64,000 nucleotides of DNA from Deltaproteobacteria bacterium (GTDB lineage: Bacteria; Myxococcota; JACPTQ01). Positions 46,396-60,941 of this stretch are shown one piece after another. The notes below the pieces were generated by a model. That model was not told the DNA's origin, made no database searches, and saw nothing but the letters and a program-made list of their open reading frames with translations. Within the stretch, counting starts at the first letter, position 1, and each line of letters begins with the position of its first letter. The position numbers were made by a program, and so were the translations under genes. The stretch spans positions 62,001 through 126,000 of the forward strand of contig JACPTQ010000022.1 in NCBI GenBank assembly GCA_016192705.1, in the 5' to 3' direction.

Positions 46396-46986
46396 GTGAC
46401 CATTTTGAGTAAAGGTTGTCGATCGATCGCGTCGGCGGAAGGGCTGTGCGCCGTCATACTCGCCCTCGCCTGCGACCTCGGCGGTGCCGGCGGCGGCCCG
46501 TCCCCACGTCCGCTACCGATTCGCCCGCTGATAGAACGCGTTCGCGAAACCACCGATCCCGTCGCGCGCGGCGCGGTCGTTTACCGCCAATACGGCTGCG
46601 GCTTGTGCCACGGCATCGACGGAAAGGGCGAGGTCGCAAACGAGAACTCCGAAACCGGCGGCAAGATTAACGGTCTCACGAAGGTGAAAGAGGGTTACGC
46701 CGAGGTCGAGGTCGCCAAGATGATCCGCGAGGGGGTCAAGCAGGTCGGTAAGAAAGACGCGGCCGGCCCGACGCCACCCTTTCGAATGCCGAGCTTCGCG
46801 AATCATTTGAAGGCGAGACAAGTCGACGATCTGGTGGCCTACCTTTTTAGTTTGTACCCGGGGGCGGGGGAAGAGAAGAGAAATGCAACCACAGAGACAC
46901 AGAGGAATGGAGATCTGAGGGAGAAGAAAAAGGCGGGCAAGAAAGAACAGCCGGGAGCGGGAAAGGACGATTGGGACAAGGAATGA
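46396..46986 (+). CDS. Monoheme c-type cytochrome lipoprotein
   Basis: A 196-residue lipoprotein (AVILALAC lipobox). The class I cytochrome c domain has the haem motif CGLCH near residue 73 and a Met ligand probably in FRMPSF, followed by the typical helix DDLVAYLFSLYPG. The C-terminal 40 residues are unusual: EKRNATTETQRNGDLREKKK is encoded by a dispersed DNA repeat. It would carry electrons in the periplasm, perhaps docked to the NrfD module encoded downstream. The GTG at 46396 is chosen for GGAG upstream and for the signal peptide. It overlaps the next gene by ATGA. Confidence 0.8.
   Translation: MTILSKGCRSIASAEGLCAVILALACDLGGAGGGPSPRPLPIRPLIERVRETTDPVARGAVVYRQYGCGLCHGIDGKGEVANENSETGGKINGLTKVKEGYAEVEVAKMIREGVKQVGKKDAAGPTPPFRMPSFANHLKARQVDDLVAYLFSLYPGAGEEKRNATTETQRNGDLREKKKAGKKEQPGAGKDDWDKE
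46887..46906 (+). repeat. CACAGAGACACAGAG-type repeat inside the cytochrome C-terminus
   Basis: AACCACAGAGACACAGAGG encodes the TTETQR peptide in the cytochrome tail. The same DNA and peptide recur at the end of the NrfD gene (51890-51931). Confidence 0.85.
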
Positions 46987-47480
46987 GCCGGCGACTCGCA
47001 ATAGGCGTCGTTGTTTTCGTCCTTGGCGTCGGCGCGGCACTTCTCGCGGCCGAACGCCCCATCGAGCAGCCGCTTCCATACAGCCACGCGGTTCACACGA
47101 AGGAGGCCGCGTGCGTTCTTTGCCACGCGGGCGCGCAATCCCAACCGAACGCGGGAATCCCCAAATTCAGCGTCTGCCAAAGCTGCCACGCAACGCCGCC
47201 CCCAAGACTCGCCGCGCCCGACAAGGCGCGCTGGGAGAACGCCGCGAAGGCGAAGGAACCCGAGGCGTGGAACCGACTCTACGAAGTCCCAAACCACGTC
47301 TACTTCTCGCACCGGCGCCACGTCGCTGTGGGAGGGATCGATTGCGCGGCGTGCCACGGCGACATGGCGACCTCGACGACGCCGCCAACGCAGGCCGCGG
47401 TCCCGATTTCGATGCGACGCTGCGTGAGCTGTCACGAGCGCGAACAGGTCACGAACGACTGCACGGCGTGTCACCGATGA
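46983..47480 (+). CDS. Pentaheme c-type cytochrome (ActA/QrcA-like)
   Basis: A 165-residue protein with an N-terminal membrane anchor or signal (LAIGVVVFVLGVGAALLAA) and five haem motifs: CVLCH, CQSCH, CAACH, CVSCH and CTACH. Extra histidines such as those in YSHAVH and FSHRRH could act as distal ligands. A small multihaem cytochrome before a molybdopterin-type gene is the order seen in alternative complex III (ActA) and the Qrc complex (QrcA, hexaheme). It should take electrons from the FeS subunit and pass them to periplasmic carriers. ATG 46983 overlaps the upstream stop; the longer frame is not needed. Confidence 0.88.
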   Translation: MSRRLAIGVVVFVLGVGAALLAAERPIEQPLPYSHAVHTKEAACVLCHAGAQSQPNAGIPKFSVCQSCHATPPPRLAAPDKARWENAAKAKEPEAWNRLYEVPNHVYFSHRRHVAVGGIDCAACHGDMATSTTPPTQAAVPISMRRCVSCHEREQVTNDCTACHR

Positions 47481-47493
47481 GGCGGAGCGAAAC

Positions 47494-49833
47494 ATGAACC
47501 GTCGCACGTTCCTCACCGTCCTTGGTTCTGGAGGCGCCGGCGTCACGATCGGTTCGCTTGGGCTCGCGCGCCTCCTGCCACCGGGCAAAAACCCGAACAG
47601 GAAGGCGCCGCTTCACGAACGAACTGCGCTCTCCACGTGCGGAGGCTGTTCGGCGGGCTGTTCGGTTGTGCTCCGCATTGTCGATGACCGCCTGGTTGGC
47701 ATTCGCGGGAACCCGAAATGCCCGCTCGCGGGCGGCGGCCTCTGCGCGCGCGGTGCTTCCGAGGTCGAGGCGTTTTACGACCCGGATCGCTTGGTCGGCC
47801 CCGTCAGGCAAACGGGCGAGCGCGGCGGCGATGCCTGGGGGCGACTCACATGGGACGAGGCTCTGGATGCTCTGGCGCGCCGACTCGCTGAAATACGAAA
47901 GGGTGGACGCCAAGGTCGGGTCGGCGTCGTGCTTGGTCCTGGCCGAGGCGTGGTCGAGGCGACGGCGGAAGCGTTCGTGCGGACGCTCGGGAGCTCGCAC
48001 GTTTATCGCTCGTCGGGCGTTCGGGACGAGGCAAGCACGGCGGCCGCGGCGCTCACGCTCGGTTGGTCGGAAGAGTGCGCGTACGACCTCGCACAAACCG
48101 ACTACCTCCTCAGCTTCGGAGCGCCCGTGCTCGAAGGGTGGCTCTCGCCAGCGTGGGTCGCGGCGACGTTCGGCCAAGCCCGCGCGCGCAAAGAGCACCG
48201 TCTTCGGTTCGTGCAGGTCGAGAGTCGCTTATCGCCAACCGCGATGCGCGCCGACCAATGGATTGCGGTCAACCCTGGGACCGAGACGATGTTCGCGCTG
48301 GGCATCGCGAGCGCCATCGTGCGCGAGCGGCTCGTCGACCGCGATTTTCTTGAGCGCACCCCGCACGGCTTTGAGGCGTGGACCGATTCGAGTGGCGCGC
48401 GTCGCCAGGGATTCAGCGATCTCTTGAACAACACCTACACGCCGACCGCGGTTTCGGCGGCAACGGGCGTCCCGATCGTGACCCTGATTGCCGTTGCGCG
48501 AGAGTTCGCGAGGGCGCATGCACCGCTCGCGCTGGGTGAAAGGCTTGCGGGGTCGGCCGGCGCCTTCGGGCTCGCCGCCGTGCAATCACTGAATGCGCTT
48601 CGTGGACGGATTGGCGCAGCCGGCGGCGTCGTGCGGCAGATGGGGGTACCGGTGAGCCCTCTTTCCGCACCCGCATCCGCACCCGCACCCGCGTCCCCGT
48701 TCGCGCCCGCACACGGAGCATCCGTTTGGAGCGCGCTCGCAGATGAGCCGCCCACGCGTGAACCACCCTTTGATCTCCTCTTCCTCTCAGATGGCGCGGC
48801 GCTCTCGGGCCTCGCGCCCGACGATCCCGCCTGGAAGGCGCTATCGCGCGTCCCGCACATCGTCTCGTTCGCGACGGGGCTCGACCTCTCCACGCGCATC
48901 GCCGACGTCGTCCTCCCTGCGACCACGCGCTTCGAGCAGTGGAACGACGTCGTGCCACCGCCCGCGACCGGCCTCGCGACCCTAGCGCTTTCACGCCCAG
49001 CGCTTCCGCGTCTCGCGGATGGGCGCGACACGGTCCAAGTGTTCCTGGACCTTGCGAAGCGTCTCGGCCCGTCCCTCACTCTGGCGCTTCCTTTTGCGAA
49101 CACCGAGGCCGTGATCCGCCATCGCCTGCGTGGACTTGCCGCTGTTCGGCGCGGAATGCCGTACTCCACCTCGTTCCAGCGCGAGTGGGCGTCGCAGATG
49201 GCCGCCGGCGGTTGGTGGCTCTCGCCGGCATCCTCGCCCGAAAAACTCTTCGCGCTCATCCTCGAAAGCGGCGGATGGCTCGATCCGGTCGTGGCACCAA
49301 CAGAGCGCGACCGCATCGAATACCGATTTGCGCCCAAGCTGCACCTGACGAACGCCCGGGCCGAGGGCTTTCCGTACCCCGAGCCGTGGACAACGTCGAA
49401 GGTTTCCCCTGCGCTCGCCCCCGACCGCCTCTGGCTCATCCCGTTCGCGGCGGGCGGCCTCGTCGGGTGCGGCACGCCGAATCGCCCGACGCTTCTTCAG
49501 CTCGCCGGTGCGCACGTCGAAGGCGCCTTTCGACCCTGGGCCGAGTTCAACCCAGCCGATGCGAAACGTCTCGGCCTTCGCGAGGGCGGGCTCGCCGAGA
49601 TCGCCTCGGACGCTGGGCGAATCATCGTTTCGGTGCGCCACTACCCAGGCATTCCCGAAGGCGCTGTGGCCGTCGCGATGGGACCGGCCGGCGTTGGGGG
49701 CGGTCGCTGGTCGCGGAGCTGGAGCGACGGCGCGTCGCGGCTCCTCGGCGCGCAACGCGGCGCGGTCATCGGCTGCCGACTCGCGGCGGGAATCGCGGTG
49801 CAAGTCACGCCCGCGACGAGAGGCCCCGCATGA
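47494..49833 (+). CDS. Molybdopterin oxidoreductase-family subunit (QrcB/ActB1/PsrA-like)
   Basis: A 779-residue protein with a twin-arginine signal (MNRRTFLTVLGSGGAGVT), so it is exported folded to the periplasmic side. The [4Fe-4S] motif is present: CGGCSAGC then C in LCARG (C-x2-C-x3-C-x27-C). The rest fits the molybdopterin oxidoreductase fold (SVSAAT-like VSAATGVPIVTLIAVAREFA; C-terminal ASDAGRIIVSVRHYPGIPEG). Whether it binds Mo-bisMGD is unclear: ActB1 and QrcB do not. A hexamer DNA repeat (48664-48711) has inserted an Ala/Pro-rich loop, LSAPASAPAPASPFAPAHGA. GCGGAG precedes the ATG, and the gene overlaps the FeS gene by ATGA. Confidence 0.88.
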   Translation: MNRRTFLTVLGSGGAGVTIGSLGLARLLPPGKNPNRKAPLHERTALSTCGGCSAGCSVVLRIVDDRLVGIRGNPKCPLAGGGLCARGASEVEAFYDPDRLVGPVRQTGERGGDAWGRLTWDEALDALARRLAEIRKGGRQGRVGVVLGPGRGVVEATAEAFVRTLGSSHVYRSSGVRDEASTAAAALTLGWSEECAYDLAQTDYLLSFGAPVLEGWLSPAWVAATFGQARARKEHRLRFVQVESRLSPTAMRADQWIAVNPGTETMFALGIASAIVRERLVDRDFLERTPHGFEAWTDSSGARRQGFSDLLNNTYTPTAVSAATGVPIVTLIAVAREFARAHAPLALGERLAGSAGAFGLAAVQSLNALRGRIGAAGGVVRQMGVPVSPLSAPASAPAPASPFAPAHGASVWSALADEPPTREPPFDLLFLSDGAALSGLAPDDPAWKALSRVPHIVSFATGLDLSTRIADVVLPATTRFEQWNDVVPPPATGLATLALSRPALPRLADGRDTVQVFLDLAKRLGPSLTLALPFANTEAVIRHRLRGLAAVRRGMPYSTSFQREWASQMAAGGWWLSPASSPEKLFALILESGGWLDPVVAPTERDRIEYRFAPKLHLTNARAEGFPYPEPWTTSKVSPALAPDRLWLIPFAAGGLVGCGTPNRPTLLQLAGAHVEGAFRPWAEFNPADAKRLGLREGGLAEIASDAGRIIVSVRHYPGIPEGAVAVAMGPAGVGGGRWSRSWSDGASRLLGAQRGAVIGCRLAAGIAVQVTPATRGPA
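48664..48711. repeat. Hexamer-type repeat tract inside the molybdopterin-family gene
   Basis: CCGCACCCGCATCCGCACC and further units encode an Ala/Pro/Ser insertion in the middle of an otherwise conserved enzyme-type protein. Confidence 0.8.
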
Positions 49834-50525
49834 CCCGCTGGGGAATGGTCATCGACCTCGATCGCTGTACGGGCTGCGGCGCCTGCGTCGTCGCGTGTCG
49901 CCAGGAGAACAACGTCCCCGTCGCGTCGGAGGACGACTATTACAAGGGGCGGAACCTCGATTGGATTCAGCTCGCCCGCCACGTTGACGGCGAATACCCG
50001 AACACCCAGGTTCGCCAATACCCGTTCCTCTGCATGCAATGCGACGACCCGCCATGCATCAAGGTGTGCCCCGTCGGCGCGACTTATCGCGACGAAGAGG
50101 GGATCGTCGGCCAGATTTACTACCGCTGCATCGGGTGCCGCTACTGCACGAGCGCCTGCCCCTACTCGGTCAAGGTTTTCAACTGGAAGAAGCCCACCTG
50201 GCCCGACGGGACCGACCGGCGCCAGAACCCCGATGTTTCGATCCGTTCCGTGGGCATCGTCGAGAAATGCACGTTCTGCCACCACCGGCGCCAACGCGCG
50301 AAGGAAGTCGCGCGGGCCGAAGGGCGCGAGCTGAACCCGAGCGACTATGTGCCGGCATGCGCCGAGATTTGCCCCGCGGGAGCGATGGTCTTTGGCGATC
50401 TCGATGACAAGGGGAGCGACGTCCACCGCCTCGCGGAAGATCCGCGCGCCCTGCGAATGATGGAAGAGCTCGGGACGAAACCGAAAGTCATCTATTTGAA
50501 GCGCGTCGCGGAGGCGAAGAAATGA
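49830..50525 (+). CDS. Four-cluster ferredoxin-like FeS subunit (PsrB/QrcC-like)
   Basis: A 231-residue subunit with four cysteine groups: CTGCGACVVAC, CMQCDDPPCIKVCP, CIGCRYCTSACP and CTFCHHRRQ with CAEICP. This is the PsrB/DmsB type, holding up to four FeS clusters that connect the NrfD quinone site with the molybdopterin-family subunit. It has no signal peptide and would be carried across the membrane with its Tat-exported partner. It overlaps both neighbours by ATGA, so the three proteins are made together. Confidence 0.93.
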   Translation: MTRWGMVIDLDRCTGCGACVVACRQENNVPVASEDDYYKGRNLDWIQLARHVDGEYPNTQVRQYPFLCMQCDDPPCIKVCPVGATYRDEEGIVGQIYYRCIGCRYCTSACPYSVKVFNWKKPTWPDGTDRRQNPDVSIRSVGIVEKCTFCHHRRQRAKEVARAEGRELNPSDYVPACAEICPAGAMVFGDLDDKGSDVHRLAEDPRALRMMEELGTKPKVIYLKRVAEAKK

Positions 50526-52015
50526 ACGGTCCGATCGCCACGACCGCCCCCGCGCCCATCGAAACCGAACACGAGCGCGCGCTCTTTCACCACATTCGCC
50601 ACACGGGGCGCGGCTTCAAGATTCTGTCGGTCGTCCTCGCTCTCATCGCCGCGTGGGGACTCACCGCCTGGATCTGGCAGCTCACGCACGGCCTCGAAGT
50701 GACCGGCCTCTTTCGCCCCGTTTACTGGGGCATCTACATCACGAACTTCGTTTTCTTCATCGGCGTCTCGCACGCGGGGACGCTCATCAGCGCTATCCTG
50801 CGCCTCTCCAAAGCCGAATGGCGCCGCAGCGTCACGCGCATGGCCGAAGTGATCACCGTGCTCGTCCTCTTCTTCGGCGCCGGCAACGTCATCATCGACA
50901 TGGGCCGCCCCGATCGCGCGTTCTACGTCCTCCTCCACCCCAACTTTCGTTCGCCACTCCTCTGGGACGTCTGCGCGATCTCGCTCTATCTCACGGCAAG
51001 CACGATTTACCTCTTCCTCCCGCTCCTCCCCGACATCGCGCGCCTTCGCGGCAAAATCGGCGGCTGGCGCGAGCGCGTCTACCGAGCCCTCTCGTTTGGC
51101 TACGACGACACGCCCGCGCAGCGCGGCAAGGTCGAGAAGGCGATCAACATCCTCGCCGTCATCGTTCTCCCGATCGCGATCAGCGTTCACACGGTCGTGT
51201 CGTGGGTCTTCGCCATGACGATTCAGCCGATGTGGCACTCGACGATCTTCGGGCCGTACTTCGTCGCGGGCGCCATCTTCAGCGGGATCGCCGCGATCCT
51301 CACGTTCATGGTGGTGCTGCGAAAAGTGTTCAAGCTCGAAAACTATCTCCGCCCGATCCACTTCGATTACCTCGGCCGACTCCTCCTCGTCATGACGCTC
51401 CTTTGGTTCTACTTCACGTTCGCCGAGCACATCACGACTTGGTACGGCAACGAGGGGCACGAGATGAAAGTCCTCTCGGCAAAACTCTCGGGCCCCTACA
51501 GCCCGTTCTTCTGGGCGATGGTCGCGACCTGCTTCGTCATCCCGATGTCGATCCTTTGTCGCCGCTCGACGCGCTCCATCCGCGGCGTTCTCATCGCGAG
51601 CATCTCGGTCAACATCGGGATGTACCTTGAGCGCTACACGATCGTCGTGCCGACGCTCGTCAACCCGCGCGTGCACTTGACGCAGGCGCTCTACAGCCCG
51701 AGCTGGGTCGAGTGGTCGATCCTCGCGGCGTGCATCTCGGCGTTCATCCTCCTCTATATGGGGTTCACGAAGCTCTTCCCGATCGTGTCGGTTTGGGAGG
51801 TCGAGGAAGGGATGCGCCACGGGCCGCGTGAGACGGCCGAGCGCATCAAGACGTTTCTGCCGGAAGAAGAAGAAAAGAAGAGAACATGCACCACAGAGAC
51901 ACAGAGAGAAGGGAGCGCGGAAACACAGAGGGATATGGGGGAGGAGAAAAGAGCGGGTGCGGTTGCGGAGGCGGTAGCGGGTGCGGGTGCGGATGCGGAA
52001 GGCGGGAACAAATGA
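50522..52015 (+). CDS. NrfD/PsrC-type quinone-interacting membrane subunit
   Basis: A 497-residue integral membrane protein with eight or more helices (ILSVVLALIAAWGLTAWIW, WGIYITNFVFFIGVSHAGTL, AMVATCFVIPMSILC, WSILAACISAFILLYMGF). It matches NrfD/PsrC proteins that exchange electrons with menaquinone or ubiquinone. The last 55 residues are not part of the family: TTETQREGSAETQRDMGEEK then Ala/Gly-rich sequence, encoded by the two repeat types at 51890-52000. The tail would be cytoplasmic or periplasmic and disordered. ATGA overlaps at both ends. Confidence 0.92.
   Translation: MNGPIATTAPAPIETEHERALFHHIRHTGRGFKILSVVLALIAAWGLTAWIWQLTHGLEVTGLFRPVYWGIYITNFVFFIGVSHAGTLISAILRLSKAEWRRSVTRMAEVITVLVLFFGAGNVIIDMGRPDRAFYVLLHPNFRSPLLWDVCAISLYLTASTIYLFLPLLPDIARLRGKIGGWRERVYRALSFGYDDTPAQRGKVEKAINILAVIVLPIAISVHTVVSWVFAMTIQPMWHSTIFGPYFVAGAIFSGIAAILTFMVVLRKVFKLENYLRPIHFDYLGRLLLVMTLLWFYFTFAEHITTWYGNEGHEMKVLSAKLSGPYSPFFWAMVATCFVIPMSILCRRSTRSIRGVLIASISVNIGMYLERYTIVVPTLVNPRVHLTQALYSPSWVEWSILAACISAFILLYMGFTKLFPIVSVWEVEEGMRHGPRETAERIKTFLPEEEEKKRTCTTETQREGSAETQRDMGEEKRAGAVAEAVAGAGADAEGGNK
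51890..52000. repeat. Composite repeat at the NrfD-cytochrome gene junction
   Basis: CCACAGAGACACAGAGAGAA and AAACACAGAGGG (51890-51931) are followed by GCGGGTGCGG/TTGCGG/GATGCGG hexamers (51953-52000). The repeats encode the NrfD tail and end just before the ATG at 52012; GGAAGG in the last unit serves as the ribosome binding site. Confidence 0.85.
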
Positions 52016-53280
52016 AGCGCATGCCGCGTTATTGGGTTGCGTGCGCAGTCGTGGGCGTTTGCGTGCCCGTCCTTGCCGGAGAGCTCGCCATCAAACTGAA
52101 CGGGCCGCTCCCCGAAGGGCCGCGAGAGAGCGCGGTCGCCTTCGAGCAGCTTCGGTGCTCGACGTGTCACACCGTCGGCGCGGGCCCGGACCGCGGGGGC
52201 CCCAATCTCGGGCGACTCGACCTTCGCGTCTCGTTTCTTGATGGCGCCGCGCGGCTATGGAACCACTTTCCCGGAATGCAGGCGCGGATGCGCGAGCTGC
52301 ACGTCCCTTACCCCGCGATCACAGGCGACGCCCTCGTGAACTTGGTCGCCCTCTTCACGAGCTACCAGTACTACCTCACGCGCGTTGGACGGCCGGGTGT
52401 TTCACCGCGCGGCGAGGCGCTCTTCGCCACGAAGGGATGCGCCGCGTGTCACTCATTCGAGTCGGGGGCGAAATCGACCGGTCCAAATCTCACAGCCTAT
52501 TCAGCGGGGCGTTCGACGCTCGATGTGGCGCAGGCGATGTGGAACCACGGCCCCGCGATGCAGAAGACGCTCGAAGCGCGTGCGATTGCACGACCCTCAT
52601 TTCGAAAGGGCGAGATGGCGGATCTCCTCGCCTACATCGCGACGCGTGGTGCGCCGCCTGGAACGGTCTCGGCGACGCTCGAACCAGGGAGTCCGAAACG
52701 CGGGGCGGCGGTGTTTCAAGCGCGCGGCTGCGGACGTTGCCACGCCGTTCGCGGTGTTGGAGGGGGCTTAAAGGGAGGCGCGAATCCCGCGCCAGACCTC
52801 GGGCGTCAGCCCGATGCGTTCGTGAGGGACTACACCGACGTCGCGGGCGTGCTTTGGAACCACGCGGTCCCGATGTGGGATCGCATGCGTCGCGAAGGCG
52901 TGTCTGTCGCGCCGCTCGTCGGCAACGACCTCGCGGATCTCGTCGCCTTTCTCTTCTTCGTCAACTTCGCTGACGAGACAGGGGACGTCACACGCGGTGC
53001 CACGGTTTTCGATCGGAAGGGGTGCGGCGCGTGCCACGCGATTGGCGAGCCGCGAAACGGCGATCCCGCTCCATCGCTTGGACGCGCGGCTGGGCTCGAT
53101 CGGCCGCAGGATGTGCTCGCCGCGATGTGGCGTGCCGCGCCGAAGATGCAGCGCGAGATGGCGAAGCGCGCGACGGAGTGGCCGCAGTTCGCGCCCGGTG
53201 AGTTCGCCGATCTGATCGCTTTCGTAAAAGACCGACGAAGCAAACCGCCGCGCCCGCCGGTGAAACTCGGGGCGCCGTAA
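52012..53280 (+). CDS. Tetraheme cytochrome made of four class I cytochrome c domains
   Basis: A 422-residue exported protein with signal peptide (RYWVACAVVGVCVPVLA) and four haem motifs: CSTCH, CAACH, CGRCH and CGACH. Each domain of about 95 residues has a later WNH or W-R-A segment with Met (MWNHGPAMQKT, LWNHAVPMWDR, MWRAAPKMQRE) that could be the sixth ligand, so haems are probably His/Met type with higher potential. It would relay electrons from the inner-membrane complex across the periplasm. The ATG overlaps the NrfD stop (ATGA). Confidence 0.88.
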   Translation: MKRMPRYWVACAVVGVCVPVLAGELAIKLNGPLPEGPRESAVAFEQLRCSTCHTVGAGPDRGGPNLGRLDLRVSFLDGAARLWNHFPGMQARMRELHVPYPAITGDALVNLVALFTSYQYYLTRVGRPGVSPRGEALFATKGCAACHSFESGAKSTGPNLTAYSAGRSTLDVAQAMWNHGPAMQKTLEARAIARPSFRKGEMADLLAYIATRGAPPGTVSATLEPGSPKRGAAVFQARGCGRCHAVRGVGGGLKGGANPAPDLGRQPDAFVRDYTDVAGVLWNHAVPMWDRMRREGVSVAPLVGNDLADLVAFLFFVNFADETGDVTRGATVFDRKGCGACHAIGEPRNGDPAPSLGRAAGLDRPQDVLAAMWRAAPKMQREMAKRATEWPQFAPGEFADLIAFVKDRRSKPPRPPVKLGAP

Positions 53281-53301: not shown

Positions 53302-54546
53302 ATGATGATGAAGACGCTGAGTTTGGGATGGCTCCTCGTGATGCTCGTCACGATCGGTTTCGCACGCGGCGACGCCGCGGCAGCCGCAGAGAAGGCGCGA
53401 TCAAAGAAGAAACCGGTGGTCGCAAAGACCCCCGACGTGGACAAAGACGACGCGGACGATTTCGAAAAGGACAAGGGCCCCGTCGACCGCAAGATCCACA
53501 TCTCGGGGGTCATGTCGACGTCGCTCCGCATGACGTGGATGGACGCGCACACGCTTCCGGATGGAACGCGCAAAGAAGACGATCGCACGTTCGAGCTTGA
53601 GCATGTCCACGTTAAACTCGGCGGAGACCTGACGCGGCATCTGTCGTGGGCCGTTCAGCCGTGCGTCGCGCACAACAACGAATTCAGCGTCATCGAAGCG
53701 AACTTCACCTACGCGTTCTTTCGCGCGCTCCAGGTGACCGTCGGCCGTTTCCTTCTCCCGTTCGGGCAATTCAACCAGCGAAGCCTTCCCGGCAGCTTCG
53801 CGACCGTCTCGCGCCCGCTCCTCTTCTCGAGTCACGAAGAGCGCACCATTTCGTACAAGGGGATCACACCGAGCAACCTCTTCTTCACACCGCGCGACGA
53901 CATCGGCATCGAGCTCGGTGGGTCGGTCTGGCTGGGCGAGAGCGAGAAGTTCCAACTGTCGTACAGCGGCTACTTCACGAACGGCCTTCGCAGCGTCTCC
54001 GGCACCTCGTCGCGCTTTTGGGACGACAACAACAACGGCAAACAGCTCGGCGCGCGCGCCACTCTCGGCTACTTCGGCGACAGACTCTCCGCCTCGATCG
54101 GTGTCTCGGGGCTCCTAAACGAGTGGGAGAAGAGCCTTAGGCAGTACGCCGTCGGCGCCGATGCGTGGATCGGCTACGAGATCAAACCGGGGCGCCGCAT
54201 CAACCTGCGCGGCGAGTACATCTTCATGCGGCGCGAGATCGTGCCCACGGCGGATCTCTTGAAGGGCGACGAGGACATCGCGGGGCTCTATGTGACGCTC
54301 GACGGGATGATCCTGTCGTGGCTCGGTGCGTTCGCCCAGTTCGATTCGCTCGACAACAAGATGCCGCGCGTCGCGACGGGCGGTGGCATCGAGGATTTCA
54401 CGGGGACGATGAACCGATACCTGTTCGGGCTCCTCTTCGTGCCGGTCGGGCCGCTCAACATTCGCCTTGAATACAGTTGGTGGCAGATACCGCTTGGATA
54501 CCCCGACGCGCACCGCGTGACCGTCCAAGCCATGGTGGTTTTTTAG
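53302..54546 (+). CDS. Outer-membrane porin-like beta-barrel protein
   Basis: A 414-residue protein with a signal peptide, a charged N-terminal segment (DVDKDDADDFEKDKGPVDRK) and a beta-barrel of about 16 strands of the porin O/P type. Signs are alternating hydrophobic strands (FELEHVHVKLGGDLTRHLSW, VTVGRFLLPFGQFNQRSLPG, NIRLEYSWWQIPL) and a C-terminal Phe (VQAMVVF). It lies inside a cytochrome operon, so it may be the channel for the electron conduit. MtrB-type barrels are larger (about 700 residues), so it may only admit solutes. GGAGGTGTTGAG precedes the ATG. Confidence 0.85.
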   Translation: MMMKTLSLGWLLVMLVTIGFARGDAAAAAEKARSKKKPVVAKTPDVDKDDADDFEKDKGPVDRKIHISGVMSTSLRMTWMDAHTLPDGTRKEDDRTFELEHVHVKLGGDLTRHLSWAVQPCVAHNNEFSVIEANFTYAFFRALQVTVGRFLLPFGQFNQRSLPGSFATVSRPLLFSSHEERTISYKGITPSNLFFTPRDDIGIELGGSVWLGESEKFQLSYSGYFTNGLRSVSGTSSRFWDDNNNGKQLGARATLGYFGDRLSASIGVSGLLNEWEKSLRQYAVGADAWIGYEIKPGRRINLRGEYIFMRREIVPTADLLKGDEDIAGLYVTLDGMILSWLGAFAQFDSLDNKMPRVATGGGIEDFTGTMNRYLFGLLFVPVGPLNIRLEYSWWQIPLGYPDAHRVTVQAMVVF

Positions 54547-54554
54547 GAGTACCG

Positions 54555-55106
54555 ATGTTGCGGATCCTCACGTTCATTCGTCGAAGGCCACCGAATCTCG
54601 CGGACGAATACCGTGCCCCGGCGGATCGTATTGCCGTCACGGTGTTCGGGGCCATGCTGTCCACCTGGGGCGCCATCATGGGGCTTTGGGCACTCATCAC
54701 GCTCGTCGGCTGCGATTTGTGGGTCGACACGGCTGAGGTCAAGGCCCCGCGCGTCGATACGGGCGCCGTCGACGGCGGCGGCACCACGCCCGTGTCGGAC
54801 GGTGGCGTCGATGCTGGGCCCGCGACCGTTTCATACGCGGCGACGGTTCAGCCGATCCTCGCCAACTCCTGCGGCGCCTGTCACAGCGGGTCGAGTCCGC
54901 AAGCTGGCCTCGACGTGACGACTTATGCGGGCCTGGTAACGCAGCAACTGGAACGCGGCATCATCGTGCCGGGTGATCCGGCCGGTTCGGTCCTCGTGCA
55001 AAGGATCGCCAACGGATCGATGCCGCCGGCTGGGCTCCCCAGCCCAACGGCGAGCGAGTTGGACACGATCAAGGCGTGGATAACGAGCGGAGCGCCAAAC
55101 AATTGA
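54555..55106 (+). CDS. Small membrane-anchored monoheme cytochrome (PSCyt1-like)
   Basis: A 183-residue protein with an N-terminal membrane segment (VTVFGAMLSTWGAIMGLWAL, near residue 40), an Asp/Gly-rich linker and a C-terminal cytochrome c domain with CGACH and the Met motif SMPPAGL. The domain resembles the cytochrome c type seen in planctomycete and myxobacterial proteins (SCGACHSGSSPQAGLDVTTY). AGGAGT precedes the ATG at 54555, 9 bases after the porin gene. Its place between the porin and the decaheme gene suggests a role in handing electrons to the surface. Confidence 0.83.
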   Translation: MLRILTFIRRRPPNLADEYRAPADRIAVTVFGAMLSTWGAIMGLWALITLVGCDLWVDTAEVKAPRVDTGAVDGGGTTPVSDGGVDAGPATVSYAATVQPILANSCGACHSGSSPQAGLDVTTYAGLVTQQLERGIIVPGDPAGSVLVQRIANGSMPPAGLPSPTASELDTIKAWITSGAPNN

Positions 55107-55168
55107 AACGAGAGCGATTCATGCGATTTGAGATTTGTACAAACACGAAGCGCAGGAGGGTTAAGGTC

Positions 55169-58100
55169 ATGCGAAAAACAGCGGCAATCGGTTGGTTCGT
55201 CATCGGCGTCGCGGTGGCGATGATCTCGTGCAAGGGGGTTAATGGGCCCGTTGGCAACGACGGCGCGCAGGGGCCGGCGGGAACGGCGGGTGACGCGGGA
55301 CCGGAAGGCCCTCTTGGGCCATCCGGTGACGCAGGGTCAACGGGACCGACCGGTACGACCGGCCTCACGGGTCCAACCGGAGCGGCGGGCGCGACGATTC
55401 GCACGGTTCTCGATCCGTACGAAAACCTTCCCGGTGTCGTCATCGCGGTAAGTGGGCTCAGCGGTGGAACGGGTGCGGGTGGCGCATTCAAGGCGGGCGA
55501 CACGATCGCCATGACATTCACCGTGCAAGACAAGGATGGCGGCGCGATCCCGCTTGGCGAGCTCGACGCGGTCTCCGTGTTCGTCTCGGGCCCAACGACG
55601 AACTACCAGCGCGTGATCGCCGAGCAATCAATCGTCATCACAGGTGCCACGCAAGTCCCGGACAGCGGCGCCTACCGCTACTCGTTCCCCGCGGTCCCGT
55701 CGACGTACCTCGCGCCGCTCAACGATTCCGCTCTATTCGACGGCGACGCCGGCGAGTTGCAAGGGCAGGCGCTCCTCGATGGGACGTACACGGTTGGCGT
55801 ACAAGCCTACAAGAACTACACGGTGTCGGGAGTGGTCTACAAAGATGTCGCGAACACGACGAAGGACTTCCTCTTTGGCAGCGCCACGTCGCTCGATTCG
55901 CGCGAGGTGGTCAAGACCGAAAACTGCAACGTCTGCCACATCCAGCTCCAAGTACACGGCGGCGGGAAGCAGCGCGACACAAAGGTCTGCGTCCTTTGCC
56001 ACACGGCCGGCGCGGAGGACGGGAACAGCCCCGGCGCGCCAATCGAATTCAAGGTGATGATCCATCGTCTCCACAACGGGAAACACCTGCCCTCGGTCAA
56101 CGGTGTCGCGACAAAAGCCGACGGCACGCGAAACTACGACGCCGGAAAGAAATCGCTCATTATCGAGGATAAAGATTACTCCGAAGTCGGCTTCCCGGCC
56201 TTCCCGAACTTCAATATTGCGATGCCCCGCAACTTTGGCTACGCGGTGCTCGATGGGGGCGAGAAGGCACTCGACGACGAGATTCGAAAGGGCGTGACCA
56301 ACTGCGCGGCGTGCCACGGAGATCCCGATGGGATCGGGCCACTCACCGCACCCGCCCAGGGCGATCGCCACAAGACGAACCCAACGCGCAGGGCGTGCGG
56401 GTCGTGCCACGACGACGTCGACTTCACGAAGCCGTACATCTCGAACTACCCGACGAACAACCCGCCGGGGATGCAGCCGCAGGCGAATGACAACGGCTGC
56501 GTGGGATGTCACGTAGGCAGCGGCTACGATGCGCGCCTTGATATCGCGAACGCCCACCTTCATCCGGTTTACCGGCCAGAGTTGGCCTCGGGCGTGAATT
56601 TCAATCTGACCGCCGTGAACGAGTTCGACGGTGGAAACGGCAATGGTCGGATCGACCCGGGCGAGAGGGTCGCGATCACGTTCACGATCAAGAACGATGC
56701 GGGGGTCGGCATCGCGCCAAGCGCCCTCGGGAGCACGTTCACCACCGTTATTTCAGGGCCGACGACGAATCGTCAGATGATTTTGAACGCGTCGTTCCCA
56801 ACGGCGGCGCTCACCGCCATCGCGATTGACGCCGGTGAGCCGTACACCATCAATGTGCCCCAGCCCGTTTTCTACGAGTACGTTGGTCGGTCCACGATGG
56901 ACGCTGGCGAGGTTTTCACAACGGTTCGCACGCCACACTGGAACGTCTCGAGCGGAACGACCACCGTGTACGTTCGAACCTCGACGGACGGCGGCGCAAC
57001 CTCGCTCGCGAGCGGCGCCAGCCCGCTCCAGAACTACATCGACGTGGTGAGCCCGACGAACTTCGCGACAAACGACAACATCGTCATCGACGACGGCGTT
57101 CCAGGGAAGGAGGAGTACCTCCAGGTCAAATTCGTCGACGGCGGCCGCCTCTGGTTCGCCGCGATCGGAAGCGGTGCTCCGTCGGTGCAGCCGTGGCTCC
57201 GTTACAGCCACACCGCGGACGCCTCCGTCATGGAGGTGCAGCTTACGACATGGACTTCGGCCATGGGCGGCTACACGCTGAACGCGGCCACCGGGCAGAT
57301 CACCGAAGGCGACGCGGGATTCACTGGGGACGGGGGATCCGGCGACAACGTTGCGGTCGTCGTCAGCTACACGAGCGACTTCGTGATGCCGGCGACCTTC
57401 ACGCCGCCGATCAACGACTCGCCCGACCTCGGCCAGGCTTGGGGCGATTGGACGGGCCTTTCGATCCTCGACGGCACGTACACCATCGGCCTTTGGGGCC
57501 GAGTGTCGTTCTATACGACCCCACTCGGCGTCTTGACCACGGACGCGGGTGGCGACAACACGAGCTACAGCGATACTTCGCCCCCGGCTACGTTCAACTT
57601 CTTGGTTGGCGACGCCGGGACTGTGGTGCCGTACCGCCTCATCTCGTCGGGCGAAAACTGCTATGCGTGCCACAAGGATCTCTTTTTCCACGGCGGCGGG
57701 CGACGCGGATTTGAAACGTGCATGATGTGTCATGCGACGGCCGGCATGGAGGACAAGCCACAGTATTCGAGGTCCAGCGCCAGCGCGACACCGGGCGCGA
57801 CCGCCAACTACCGCACGATGTTGCACAAGATCCACATGGGCAAGGATCTCGCCTACGCCACGACCTACGGCATAGAGGGGAACAGTTCGATGAGCACGTT
57901 TGAAGAGATCGGGTTCCCGGCGATGCCAGGCGGCGTCAAGAACTGCGAGAAGTGTCATGGCGCCGACATGACCACGTGGCAGGAGCCGGCGGCGCGCACC
58001 CATCCCGCGCAAACAAATCCAACGCGCGTCTGGAACGCGGTCTGTGGGTCGTGCCACGACAACGGGCCGGCTCAAATCCACATTGGGCTAATGACAAACG

Positions 58101-58180
58101 TCATAGGCGAAGAGTCGTGCTCGGTCTGTCACGGACAGGGACGCGACTTCAACGTGAAGCTGGTGCATAAGACGAGGTAG
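55169..58180 (+). CDS. Decaheme OmcA/MtrC-family surface cytochrome with collagen-like N-terminus
   Basis: A 1,003-residue lipoprotein (VAMISC lipobox). It has the four-domain layout of MtrC/OmcA: beta domain (about 80-230), pentaheme domain (CNVCH, CVLCH, CAACH, CGSCH, CVGCH at about 250-445), beta domain (about 460-800) and pentaheme domain (CYACH, CMMCH, CEKCH, CGSCH, CSVCH at about 830-985). Ten haems in all. Residues 22-75 are Gly-X-Y repeats (GPVGNDGAQGPAGTAGDAG), a collagen-like stalk not known to me in this family. It should transfer electrons to minerals, humics or partner cells, or from them. ATG 55169 has AGGAGG ten bases upstream; the longer frame is not supported. Confidence 0.9.
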   Translation: MRKTAAIGWFVIGVAVAMISCKGVNGPVGNDGAQGPAGTAGDAGPEGPLGPSGDAGSTGPTGTTGLTGPTGAAGATIRTVLDPYENLPGVVIAVSGLSGGTGAGGAFKAGDTIAMTFTVQDKDGGAIPLGELDAVSVFVSGPTTNYQRVIAEQSIVITGATQVPDSGAYRYSFPAVPSTYLAPLNDSALFDGDAGELQGQALLDGTYTVGVQAYKNYTVSGVVYKDVANTTKDFLFGSATSLDSREVVKTENCNVCHIQLQVHGGGKQRDTKVCVLCHTAGAEDGNSPGAPIEFKVMIHRLHNGKHLPSVNGVATKADGTRNYDAGKKSLIIEDKDYSEVGFPAFPNFNIAMPRNFGYAVLDGGEKALDDEIRKGVTNCAACHGDPDGIGPLTAPAQGDRHKTNPTRRACGSCHDDVDFTKPYISNYPTNNPPGMQPQANDNGCVGCHVGSGYDARLDIANAHLHPVYRPELASGVNFNLTAVNEFDGGNGNGRIDPGERVAITFTIKNDAGVGIAPSALGSTFTTVISGPTTNRQMILNASFPTAALTAIAIDAGEPYTINVPQPVFYEYVGRSTMDAGEVFTTVRTPHWNVSSGTTTVYVRTSTDGGATSLASGASPLQNYIDVVSPTNFATNDNIVIDDGVPGKEEYLQVKFVDGGRLWFAAIGSGAPSVQPWLRYSHTADASVMEVQLTTWTSAMGGYTLNAATGQITEGDAGFTGDGGSGDNVAVVVSYTSDFVMPATFTPPINDSPDLGQAWGDWTGLSILDGTYTIGLWGRVSFYTTPLGVLTTDAGGDNTSYSDTSPPATFNFLVGDAGTVVPYRLISSGENCYACHKDLFFHGGGRRGFETCMMCHATAGMEDKPQYSRSSASATPGATANYRTMLHKIHMGKDLAYATTYGIEGNSSMSTFEEIGFPAMPGGVKNCEKCHGADMTTWQEPAARTHPAQTNPTRVWNAVCGSCHDNGPAQIHIGLMTNVIGEESCSVCHGQGRDFNVKLVHKTR

Positions 58181-58213
58181 GCGGATGGATCTTTGGCGAA
58201 AGGAGGAGAGAAA

Positions 58214-58657
58214 ATGATGAGCAGGATGGAGAGAAACGAACGGCGTGGGTGCCCCGCGCCGGTGACGATCGGCCTTTTTACCTTGATCGCCTTCGGGGTG
58301 TGGCTTCTGGTTGGCCTGGGGCCTGCCGTTGCCGACGAAGAGGAAAAGAAGGAGGAGGAGAAGAAGGAGTTCGCGGCCGACAAGGGGCCCGACTCGATTG
58401 ACGTGAAGGGATACCCGGCGAAGATTCGGAGCATGTACAAGACGTTCGCGTCGAAGTGCAGCCGCTGCCACACGCTCGCGCGTCCCATCAACACCGATAT
58501 GAGTGCGGGGGCGTGGATGCGCTACGTCAAGCGAATGATGAACAAGCCGGACTCGGGGATTTCGCCCAAGCTGGGGAAGCAGATCTACCAGTTCCTGAAA
58601 TTCCACCAGGCGAAGAAGGACGAGAAGAAAAAGGCCAAGGAAGAGAAATCCGAATAA
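58214..58657 (+). CDS. Small exported monoheme cytochrome-like protein
   Basis: A 147-residue protein with a hydrophobic segment (VTIGLFTLIAFGVWLLVGLG), an acidic/basic linker (DEEEKKEEEKKEF) and one haem motif, CSRCH, followed by helices (GAWMRYVKRMMNKPDSGISP) and a Lys-rich tail. It resembles small cytochromes with a single haem and a Met-rich helix. AAGGAGGAG precedes the ATG at 58214. It closes the electron-transfer operon, 33 bases after the decaheme gene. Confidence 0.82.
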   Translation: MMSRMERNERRGCPAPVTIGLFTLIAFGVWLLVGLGPAVADEEEKKEEEKKEFAADKGPDSIDVKGYPAKIRSMYKTFASKCSRCHTLARPINTDMSAGAWMRYVKRMMNKPDSGISPKLGKQIYQFLKFHQAKKDEKKKAKEEKSE

Positions 58658-58706: not shown

Positions 58707-58719
58707 TTGACGTCGTCAA
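58707..58719 (+). promoter_or_regulatory. Palindromic operator/-35 overlapping the apparent start of the OmpA-family gene
   Basis: TTGACG-T-CGTCAA is a perfect 13-base palindrome. TTGACG fits a -35 element with a weak -10 (TACGGT) 17 bases downstream. It is also the only TTG in frame for the gene, so one of the two readings must be wrong. Confidence 0.4.
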
Positions 58720-60941
58720 ATTCGCCCTGTACGGTCCACCTAATTTTTTACCTCATTACACGACGCAACCCGATCGCCGTCCGAAAACGCCTCAGGAGTT
58801 GCTGGTCACCGCTTCTGTTTTCCCTCGCCGCGGTCGTATGCGGTGTCGGCGTATTCGCGACCGACGCGCACGCGCAAAAAGGCCTTCCCGACCTTCGCAA
58901 AGTGAATTCGAACCGCTTTGTCCCGAGCCTCGGAAACGACGGACTCGTGGGCGTCAGCTCGTCCGAGACGATGGGGCACCTCAACTTCGCGATCAAAACG
59001 ATCTTCGGATACGCCGGAAATCCGCTCCAGGCGATGCTCGACGAGAAATCGACGCTCGAGGCCTGCGCGAGTCAGTTTCGCTTCGACGTTCTCCTTTGCG
59101 TCGGGTTCAGCGATTTCTTCGACATCTGTGGTCAACCGCCGGTCCCCCTCTTCACGGCGTCGTGCGGCGGCGTCGACACGCTCGGCAACGTCCCCAAGGT
59201 CCCCGGCACTTCGATCGGCGATGTTCGCGTCATGCCGCGCGTCAACTTGCCGATTCTTCGGAACCGGGTGCTCGCTCAAGTGAAGCGTCTCAACAAGAGA
59301 CTCTATGGGCTGCTCACGGAGTTCGGCCAAGTTGGAAAGATGGTGGCGGCGGCAAAGAAAAAGGTCGCCGCGTATAAGGAAGAGGTCGATCGCCTGCGCG
59401 GTGAAGCCGAGGGCGTCGTCCGCAAGGTTTCGCAGCAAGTGGAATCGCTGTCGCGTCAGCTGTCGGGCGCAACGATCACGTTTTTGGAGAGGTTCGACGG
59501 TGGGGTGGCGAAGATTCCATCGCTGTCATCGCTTGCCGACGGTGGCGTGCCGGTGCCGCGCGCGCTCCGCGATTGGATTGAGGGCAAGGTGCCGGCGCCG
59601 CCGAATATGAAGGAACTGCTCGCAAGCGGGGTCGTGTTGCCCCCCGAATTGAAACGGCTGCTCGATGGCGGCATGCCGGGCGAAGCTCTCTGTTTGATGG
59701 GGATGAAAACCCTTGAACGCGAGAAGGCGCTGCGGCTCGCGCAGATTCGGCGCCGACTGGGCGCGATTGAGCCGATTTACCGCGATGCCATCGACGTTTA
59801 CAGGCGCTTCGAGGAGCGCCGCCAGAGACTCCTCGCAATGGTCGACGAGCTAAAAAAATCGATCACCGCGTTGGCACCGCGAACACCGACGGGCGTCGGG
59901 TTTGGGTTCGTGCCAGAGTTCACCCTCCCGACCGCCACTGACAATGCGAACGCCGGCGAGCCGGGCATGACCTTCACGCCCAAAGTCCTTCTCGATTACC
60001 GATGGGCGAACGGATCGTTTTTCGGAACGAACCTCGCCTTTCGGCTGCGGCCCGAAACCGTGACGCTCAACATCCACGCGGGAAACGAAATACTATTGGG
60101 CGTCGGCGGCAACTTCCGCCTGCACCCGCGATGGGATCTGGTTGCCGAGGCTCAGTTTGCGCTCGGCGTCGCGGGTGGCGCGTTTCTCGACCAGGTTTCG
60201 CTCGAAGGAACGGTCGGCGGAACGCATCGATTCTGCAGCGGCTTTTTCATAAACGCGTCGTACGGCCGCGGGGTCCTGACGAACTGGGGAACGCCTGACC
60301 AGCGCATCACAGCGGGTTTTGGCTACGGTCCAAAGCCGGACTGCCCCGTTGAGACGCCGCGCGATCGCGACGCCGATGGTGTTCCCGACGTGTTCGACGT
60401 CTGCCCATCGGTCGCTGGCGCGCGCGTGAATGGCTGCCCAGAGCCGCCGCTTCCACCGAAAGTTCCGCCCGCAGACCCAGAGCTCGAACCGGATCCCGAA
60501 CCCGTTGTGGACGTCGCGCCCCCGCCACAGCCGGAGACAGCTCCCAAGCTTCTACCAGAGCCCGAGCCGCCGCCGCCCGCCGTTTCCCTTTCGTCGCCGG
60601 TTGCGTTTGCGACGGCCCGCGCGGTCCTCCTCCGCATTTCGCATCCAGAACTGCGGCGCATCGCGGAGCAACTTCGACTGTTCCCCAACCTTCGCTTGCG
60701 CATCATTGGCCACAGCGACGCGCGCGGAATCGAGCGTCAAAACGTCCGGCTTTCGCGTCAACGCGCGGAGGCTGTTCGGCGCTTCTTTGTGCGTGAAGGG
60801 ATTGCGGCCGAACGAATCATAGTCGAGGGGAAAGGGAGCGCTGAGCCGCTTGAGAAGAGATGCGAGGCCAAGAAGTCGGGCGCGGCGCGCGAGAAGTGTT
60901 ACACGGCGAATCGGCAGATCGAAATCGCGATCGTGGAGTGA
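58707..60941 (+). CDS. OmpA-family protein with beta-barrel, TSP3-type calcium repeat and OmpA domain
   Basis: About 744 residues. A signal peptide ends at FATDAHA, then comes an unusual helical region (about 190-400, with the coiled-coil VEALR-type stretch KKKVAAYKEEVDRLRGEAEG). A beta-barrel-like part (about 420-555), a calcium-binding repeat (DRDADGVPDVFDVCP), a Pro-rich linker and an OmpA peptidoglycan-binding domain (LRIIGHSDARGIERQNVRLS) follow. The start is a problem: the only in-frame start codon is the TTG at 58707, which lies in a perfect palindrome and has no ribosome binding site. An ATT at 58743 or a sequence error are alternatives. Confidence 0.82.
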   Translation: MTSSNSPCTVHLIFYLITRRNPIAVRKRLRSCWSPLLFSLAAVVCGVGVFATDAHAQKGLPDLRKVNSNRFVPSLGNDGLVGVSSSETMGHLNFAIKTIFGYAGNPLQAMLDEKSTLEACASQFRFDVLLCVGFSDFFDICGQPPVPLFTASCGGVDTLGNVPKVPGTSIGDVRVMPRVNLPILRNRVLAQVKRLNKRLYGLLTEFGQVGKMVAAAKKKVAAYKEEVDRLRGEAEGVVRKVSQQVESLSRQLSGATITFLERFDGGVAKIPSLSSLADGGVPVPRALRDWIEGKVPAPPNMKELLASGVVLPPELKRLLDGGMPGEALCLMGMKTLEREKALRLAQIRRRLGAIEPIYRDAIDVYRRFEERRQRLLAMVDELKKSITALAPRTPTGVGFGFVPEFTLPTATDNANAGEPGMTFTPKVLLDYRWANGSFFGTNLAFRLRPETVTLNIHAGNEILLGVGGNFRLHPRWDLVAEAQFALGVAGGAFLDQVSLEGTVGGTHRFCSGFFINASYGRGVLTNWGTPDQRITAGFGYGPKPDCPVETPRDRDADGVPDVFDVCPSVAGARVNGCPEPPLPPKVPPADPELEPDPEPVVDVAPPPQPETAPKLLPEPEPPPPAVSLSSPVAFATARAVLLRISHPELRRIAEQLRLFPNLRLRIIGHSDARGIERQNVRLSRQRAEAVRRFFVREGIAAERIIVEGKGSAEPLEKRCEAKKSGAAREKCYTANRQIEIAIVE

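Follow-up and report, generated by a model that had tools for sequence, protein, structure and literature searches.

A collagen-like Gly-X-Y segment, probably a tether of variable length, behind the lipid anchor of OmcA/MtrC-family decaheme lipoproteins

In the solved MtrCAB complex, MtrC is seated as a single copy on MtrAB with short distances between haems (PMC7198977), and soluble MtrC constructs have been made with other sequences in place of the native signal peptide and the site of lipid attachment (PMC7198977, PMC12304082). Porin-cytochrome clusters have been described for Kuenenia and Anaeromyxobacter in a paper with no mention of collagen or glycine (PMC4245776). The segment that joins the lipid to domain I is unremarked in the literature searched, and a search linking collagen-like repeats with decaheme or multiheme cytochromes found no relevant paper. 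Short forms of such a segment are visible in deposited structures: a Gly-X-Y stub of the form GGSDG... occupies this place in the PDB entries for Shewanella OmcA (4lmh), UndA (3ucp), MtrC (7o7g), and MtrF (3pmq), and of S. baltica MtrC (6r2q). The stubs of Shewanella MtrC, OmcA, UndA, and MtrF measure 4–6 triplets, as read from the matched PDB residues.

The window analyzed here is a 64,000-nucleotide stretch of a contig from a Deltaproteobacteria genome (5.2 Mb, 88 contigs, 96.7% complete). One of its genes opens with an ATG at 55169, preceded by a ribosome-binding-like AGGAGG at 55154–55159, and closes with the last stop base at 58180. Its 1003-aa product is an OmcA/MtrC member by every family feature tested. 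The gene and the parts of its product are as follows, all on the forward strand:

55169..58180 (+), gene for an OmcA/MtrC-family decaheme lipoprotein of 1003 aa (TIGR03507 above cut-off, PF22113 twice, PF14522)
55169..55231 (+), predicted lipoprotein signal peptide with lipobox M-I-S-C and lipidated Cys21 (sequence inspection)
55235..55396 (+), putative collagen-like tether of 18 Gly-X-Y triplets, residues 23–76 (shuffle test, codon mix, Pfam Collagen, no DNA tandem repeat)
55397..55909 (+), beta domain I, residues 77–247 (AlphaFold2 pLDDT 85.4, pTM 0.80; S. baltica MtrC 6qyc as top PDB fold match)
55901..56521 (+), pentaheme domain II with CXXCH histidines 257, 278, 383, 414, and 448 (PF22113 over residues 245–451)
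56576..57643 (+), beta region III, about residues 470–825 (low-to-moderate-confidence strands in the full-length model; lies between the haem groups)
57659..58177 (+), pentaheme domain IV with CXXCH histidines 835, 855, 930, 963, and 988 (second PF22113 stretch, PF14522)

A first-pass annotation had described this product as an OmcA/MtrC-type decaheme lipoprotein with two pentaheme and two beta domains in MtrC order, and the profile searches bear this out. The protein scores 248.5 bits against a TIGR03507 cut-off of 209.3, and PF22113, which describes MtrC/MtrF domains II/IV, matches it twice; PF14522 matches in domain IV. By inspection, the signal sequence reads MRKTAAIGWFVIGVAVAMIS^C, with the lipobox MISC at residues 18–21, and the ten CXXCH motifs fall into two groups of five (residues 253–448 and 831–988), giving the order beta-I, pentahaem-II, beta-III, pentahaem-IV. 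When the protein is aligned with four homologues of 44–53% identity, 12 histidines outside the CXXCH motifs prove invariant, including residues 263, 299, 302, 463, and 465 in domain II and 841, 886, 889, 945, 971, and 1000 in domain IV; they are well placed, and their number would be enough for bis-His ligation of ten haems. By homology, the protein is predicted to be a redox carrier, probably located on the outer surface and passing electrons to outside acceptors.

A full-length AlphaFold2 model built from five sequences reached a pLDDT of 38.7, with values of 22–27 over the Gly-X-Y stretch, and was unusable beyond beta-I, so that comparison with the PDB was restricted to domain I modeled alone. 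Among the Foldseek matches listed, only two fell under E 0.001, both of them S. baltica MtrC chains (top match 6qyc, E 2.7e-5, prob 1.00, TMq 0.51, rmsd about 6), which identifies the domain adjoining the collagen-like stretch as an MtrC-type beta domain. No C1q/TNF-like or other known trimer head appeared among the matches listed for domain I, and no trimerisation domain was recognised flanking the Gly-X-Y repeat.

Right behind the lipidated cysteine and ahead of domain I, residues 23–76 form 18 unbroken triplets, or 54 residues: GVN GPV GND GAQ GPA GTA GDA GPE GPL GPS GDA GST GPT GTT GLT GPT GAA GAT. The first-pass annotation had noted about 50 such residues at this place and called them a collagen-like stalk; a profile search agrees, with Pfam Collagen (PF01391) matching residues 23–75 (E 4.3e-8, 33.2 bits against a gathering score of 27.2). 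Given the protein's own glycine frequency of 12.9%, about 1e-13 runs of 18 triplets are expected, and the longest run in 100,000 shuffles of residues 22–77 was 9 triplets. Glycine codons are mixed across the 18 positions (GGG 5, GGC 5, GGA 4, GGT 4) and no tandem DNA repeat was found under the segment; what has been maintained is therefore the glycine period of the protein, at any rate after whatever expansion may have produced it, and an origin by slippage was rejected. A repeat-expansion artefact without selected function would account for the very unstable length of the segment among relatives, but it is hardly credible in view of the codon mix and of the occurrence of the segment in the paralogue and in most relatives of two phyla. 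The concern that the stalk might be a rarity produced by slippage and missing from close relatives is not borne out.

Because the segment sits between the lipid anchor and domain I, a spacer is its natural reading, and the earlier proposal that it lifts the cytochrome away from the membrane stands in that form. Most probably it serves as a tether whose length can be adjusted, and it does not by itself establish a stalk of three chains. In the mechanism that we propose, the lipidated cysteine at the mature N-terminus would be followed immediately by the collagen-like tether, which would hold domain I and the ten haems off the lipid surface, and whose length would be easily altered by evolution (18 triplets in this protein, from 0 to 37 in its relatives). 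A length-variable tether of this kind, probably not an obligate trimer, is the likely explanation, since the segment recurs at the same spot with variable length in most relatives and is short even in the Shewanella proteins.

In order to see how widespread the segment is, 195 genomes of the phylum, probably Myxococcota, were searched with the TIGR03507 profile, of which 97 match and 54 pass the cut-off. N-termini were examined for 92 family members chosen by profile score, the two of the window genome left out and some lying on fragmentary contigs; simple rules for lipobox and runs recognised a lipobox in 84 of them, from 49 genomes. At least four consecutive triplets follow the lipid cysteine in 67 of these 84 relatives, at least eight in 46, and at least 12 in 34, with a maximum of 37, and 47 of the 49 genomes encode at least one member with four or more. 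Pfam Collagen matched 42 of 88 N-termini scanned at E ≤ 0.001. The window genome's only other TIGR03507 protein, on a separate contig, carries 10 + 9 triplets after its lipobox. The nearest relatives of the window protein belong to Planctomycetota, where 18 of 24 members have at least four triplets and only two have at least eight. Together these counts suggest that the collagen-like segment is a family-wide, length-variable feature that would be standard in the family, present in most relatives as the homologue survey proposed earlier has found. Roughly one in five of the members in this phylum do without it, so that it is dispensable, a point that counts against the tether.

The position of the segment is as regular as its length is variable. 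The run begins exactly at Cys+2 in 45 of the 67 relatives with at least four triplets, and an N-terminal alignment of 88 sequences gives the consensus CxGxxGxxGxxGxxG. A fixed start of this kind, together with the short version in all five Shewanella sequences seen, would fit a glycine-rich N-terminus acting mainly as a sorting signal, in which the CxGxxG start would let the protein escape retention and send it to the surface, the long version having arisen by drift. Such a signal, however, needs neither up to 37 triplets nor a glycine phase held over 54 residues, and one clade does without the motif; we regard this explanation as quite improbable.

Length has changed repeatedly. On a FastTree phylogeny of 106 haem-domain sequences, scored as eight or more against fewer than eight triplets, the state of eight or more changed at least 20 times, and sister proteins differ by 23 against 6 and by 4 against 20 triplets. 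Domain I is 44–58% identical between the window protein and relatives with 2–5 triplets, and relatives at 44–53% identity have kept only 2–5. One Myxococcota-type clade, represented by eight proteins, carries poly-Gly instead of Gly-X-Y, as expected of a spacer, which supports the tether; neither kind of stretch occurs in a second clade. The window protein and its paralogue sit inside a mainly Planctomycetota clade, a placement that may reflect gene transfer. A stalk length tuned to the species, with the paralogues of one genome alike, was considered and not retained (permutation within families, p 0.10–0.19, not significant).

The first-pass annotation had also placed 30 haems together in a trimer. 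Three lipid-anchored chains wound into a homotrimeric collagen triple helix would make a stiff post some 15 nm long (54 residues × 0.286 nm), and the 18 uninterrupted triplets and the above-cut-off Pfam match agree with such a helix, as do the seven prolines in X with none in Y and the threonine or alanine in Y, both as in bacterial collagens, for which a bias of proline to X is typical. Many relatives, however, carry poly-Gly or are too short, 2–5 triplets being too few for a stable triple helix, and no recognised trimerisation domain accompanies a domain I that matches MtrC. Stable helices form without hydroxyproline in bacterial collagens (Tm 35–39 °C; PMC4066190). Anchoring in the membrane would raise the local concentration of chains. 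The window segment nevertheless has only 18 triplets, with 7 prolines in its 36 X/Y sites, whereas recombinant Scl2 has (Gly-X-Y)79 and a trimerisation domain (PMC4066190). A rigid 15 nm post would moreover carry the haems far past the tunnelling range of any outer-membrane conduit, and MtrCAB holds its one MtrC. On the strength of the relatives with 2–5 triplets or poly-Gly, the single-copy MtrC, the Scl2 contrast, and the conduit distance, the tether ranks above the trimeric helix, which is unlikely for this protein; a trimer with 30 haems is unsupported, and a flexible or only partly ordered single-chain tether is favoured over a rigid three-chain post of that length.

Composition across the family counts in the opposite direction. 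Over 50 runs of at least eight triplets, proline has a frequency of 0.31 at X against 0.10 at Y, and asparagine one of 0.01 at X against 0.17 at Y; proline is commoner in X in 35 runs and in Y in 8 (sign test p 4e-5, although the runs are not independent of one another). An indifferent flexible linker has no need of these biases, which weighs against the tether and leaves room for a triple helix in the long versions. That the long-stalk members are genuine lipid-anchored triple helices, trimeric 30-haem posts standing 10–30 nm off the outer membrane, seems improbable to us; if true, they would give extracellular electron transfer a novel architecture.

Set beside described systems, the window protein resembles Shewanella MtrC, MtrF, OmcA, and UndA as a lipoprotein with 5 + 5 CXXCH motifs, the beta-haem-beta-haem order, the domain I fold, and Gly-X-Y after the lipid cysteine. 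Unlike them it has 18 triplets rather than 4–6 and longer beta regions (1003 aa against about 670 aa). With the short form present in Shewanella, the long stalk is continuous with known proteins and is a variant inside the known OmcA/MtrC family. It shares with the PF01391 proteins Scl1/Scl2, BclA, and Lcl an uninterrupted Gly-X-Y run, proline in X, and no need of hydroxyproline, and differs from them in its short run, its electron-carrier cargo, and the lack of a recognised trimerisation domain of the kind that usually adjoins the repeat in Scl and BclA. Burkholderia Bucl3 and Bucl8 are likewise lipid-anchored, and the number of triplets in their collagen-like regions varies (PMC4565658), although their cargo domains are unrelated. 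The survey suggests that tethers in this phylum are long enough to decide whether the cytochrome still makes contact with a conduit in the outer membrane or has to extend away from it. With the segment as a standard tether of variable length, the effect of that length on extracellular electron transfer would be open to direct test.

The genes around the decaheme gene include possible partners:

46851..53280 (+), upstream set of pentaheme cytochrome, QrcB/PhsA-like molybdopterin protein, 4Fe-4S protein, NrfD, and four-CXXCH cytochrome (best scores below NCBIfam cut-offs)
46851–47477 (+), the upstream pentaheme cytochrome
53302..54546 (+), upstream porin-like protein (Porin_O_P, PF07396 E 6e-6, above cut-off), a possible outer-membrane partner
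54477..55106 (+), upstream single-CXXCH protein (PSCyt1), a possible partner by adjacency
58193..58657 (+), small downstream one-CXXCH protein

Judged by gene order, oxidation of quinol may feed cytochromes toward the surface, with the genes at 46851..53280 as a possible quinol-side electron source linked to the decaheme protein by that order. Within them, 46851–52015 resembles a Qrc/alternative-complex-III-like membrane complex set (pentaheme cytochrome, molybdopterin-fold, 4Fe-4S, NrfD), all below NCBIfam cut-offs. Unlike at MtrC loci, no MtrA or MtrB genes are recognised beside the window gene: MtrA-type cytochromes (TIGR03508) gave only sub-threshold matches in the genome, and a search run without a positive control found no match there to the MtrB-type porin (TIGR03509). 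In Planctomycetota relatives, a 13-CXXCH protein is encoded directly upstream of the decaheme gene, an arrangement resembling the Kuenenia and Anaeromyxobacter clusters (PMC4245776). The window porin matched a porin-like gene of a Planctomycetota relative only weakly, within its N-terminal part rich in Ala and Lys. A defence-system library search returned no match. Farther downstream, 58707–60941 encodes a protein with an OmpA domain that matches the outer membrane exchange protein TraB below threshold (112.9 bits against a cut-off of 700).

Other multihaem and collagen-like proteins were seen along the way. Proteins with 18–23 CXXCH motifs, in open frames of about 450–640 aa, adjoin stalked decaheme genes at six loci in several genomes of the phylum, and at another locus four neighbouring genes with 8–12 CXXCH and no stalk may be 12-haem versions of the family. 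In nine proteins, Gly-X-Y runs alternate with short Cys-pair repeats (e.g., CTVTDNGDGTKTITCxDGTSVTV) from the lipobox to the haem domains, and matches to DUF7151 or to the Collagen-flanked surface repeat occur in the N-terminal set. A second kind of collagen-stalked multihaem lipoprotein has about 20 triplets, two CarboxypepD_reg matches, and 8 CXXCH (G000 C47, L144:9689–12280; also L113). In the window's own genome, further proteins have collagen stretches near the N-terminus, several of them soon after a lipobox-like cysteine. Three of these (L109, L111, and L114) carry about 23–38 triplets followed by a Gly-rich domain whose ends are similar among them, with lipobox-like cysteines in L109 and L114 (GVGC and GIGC).
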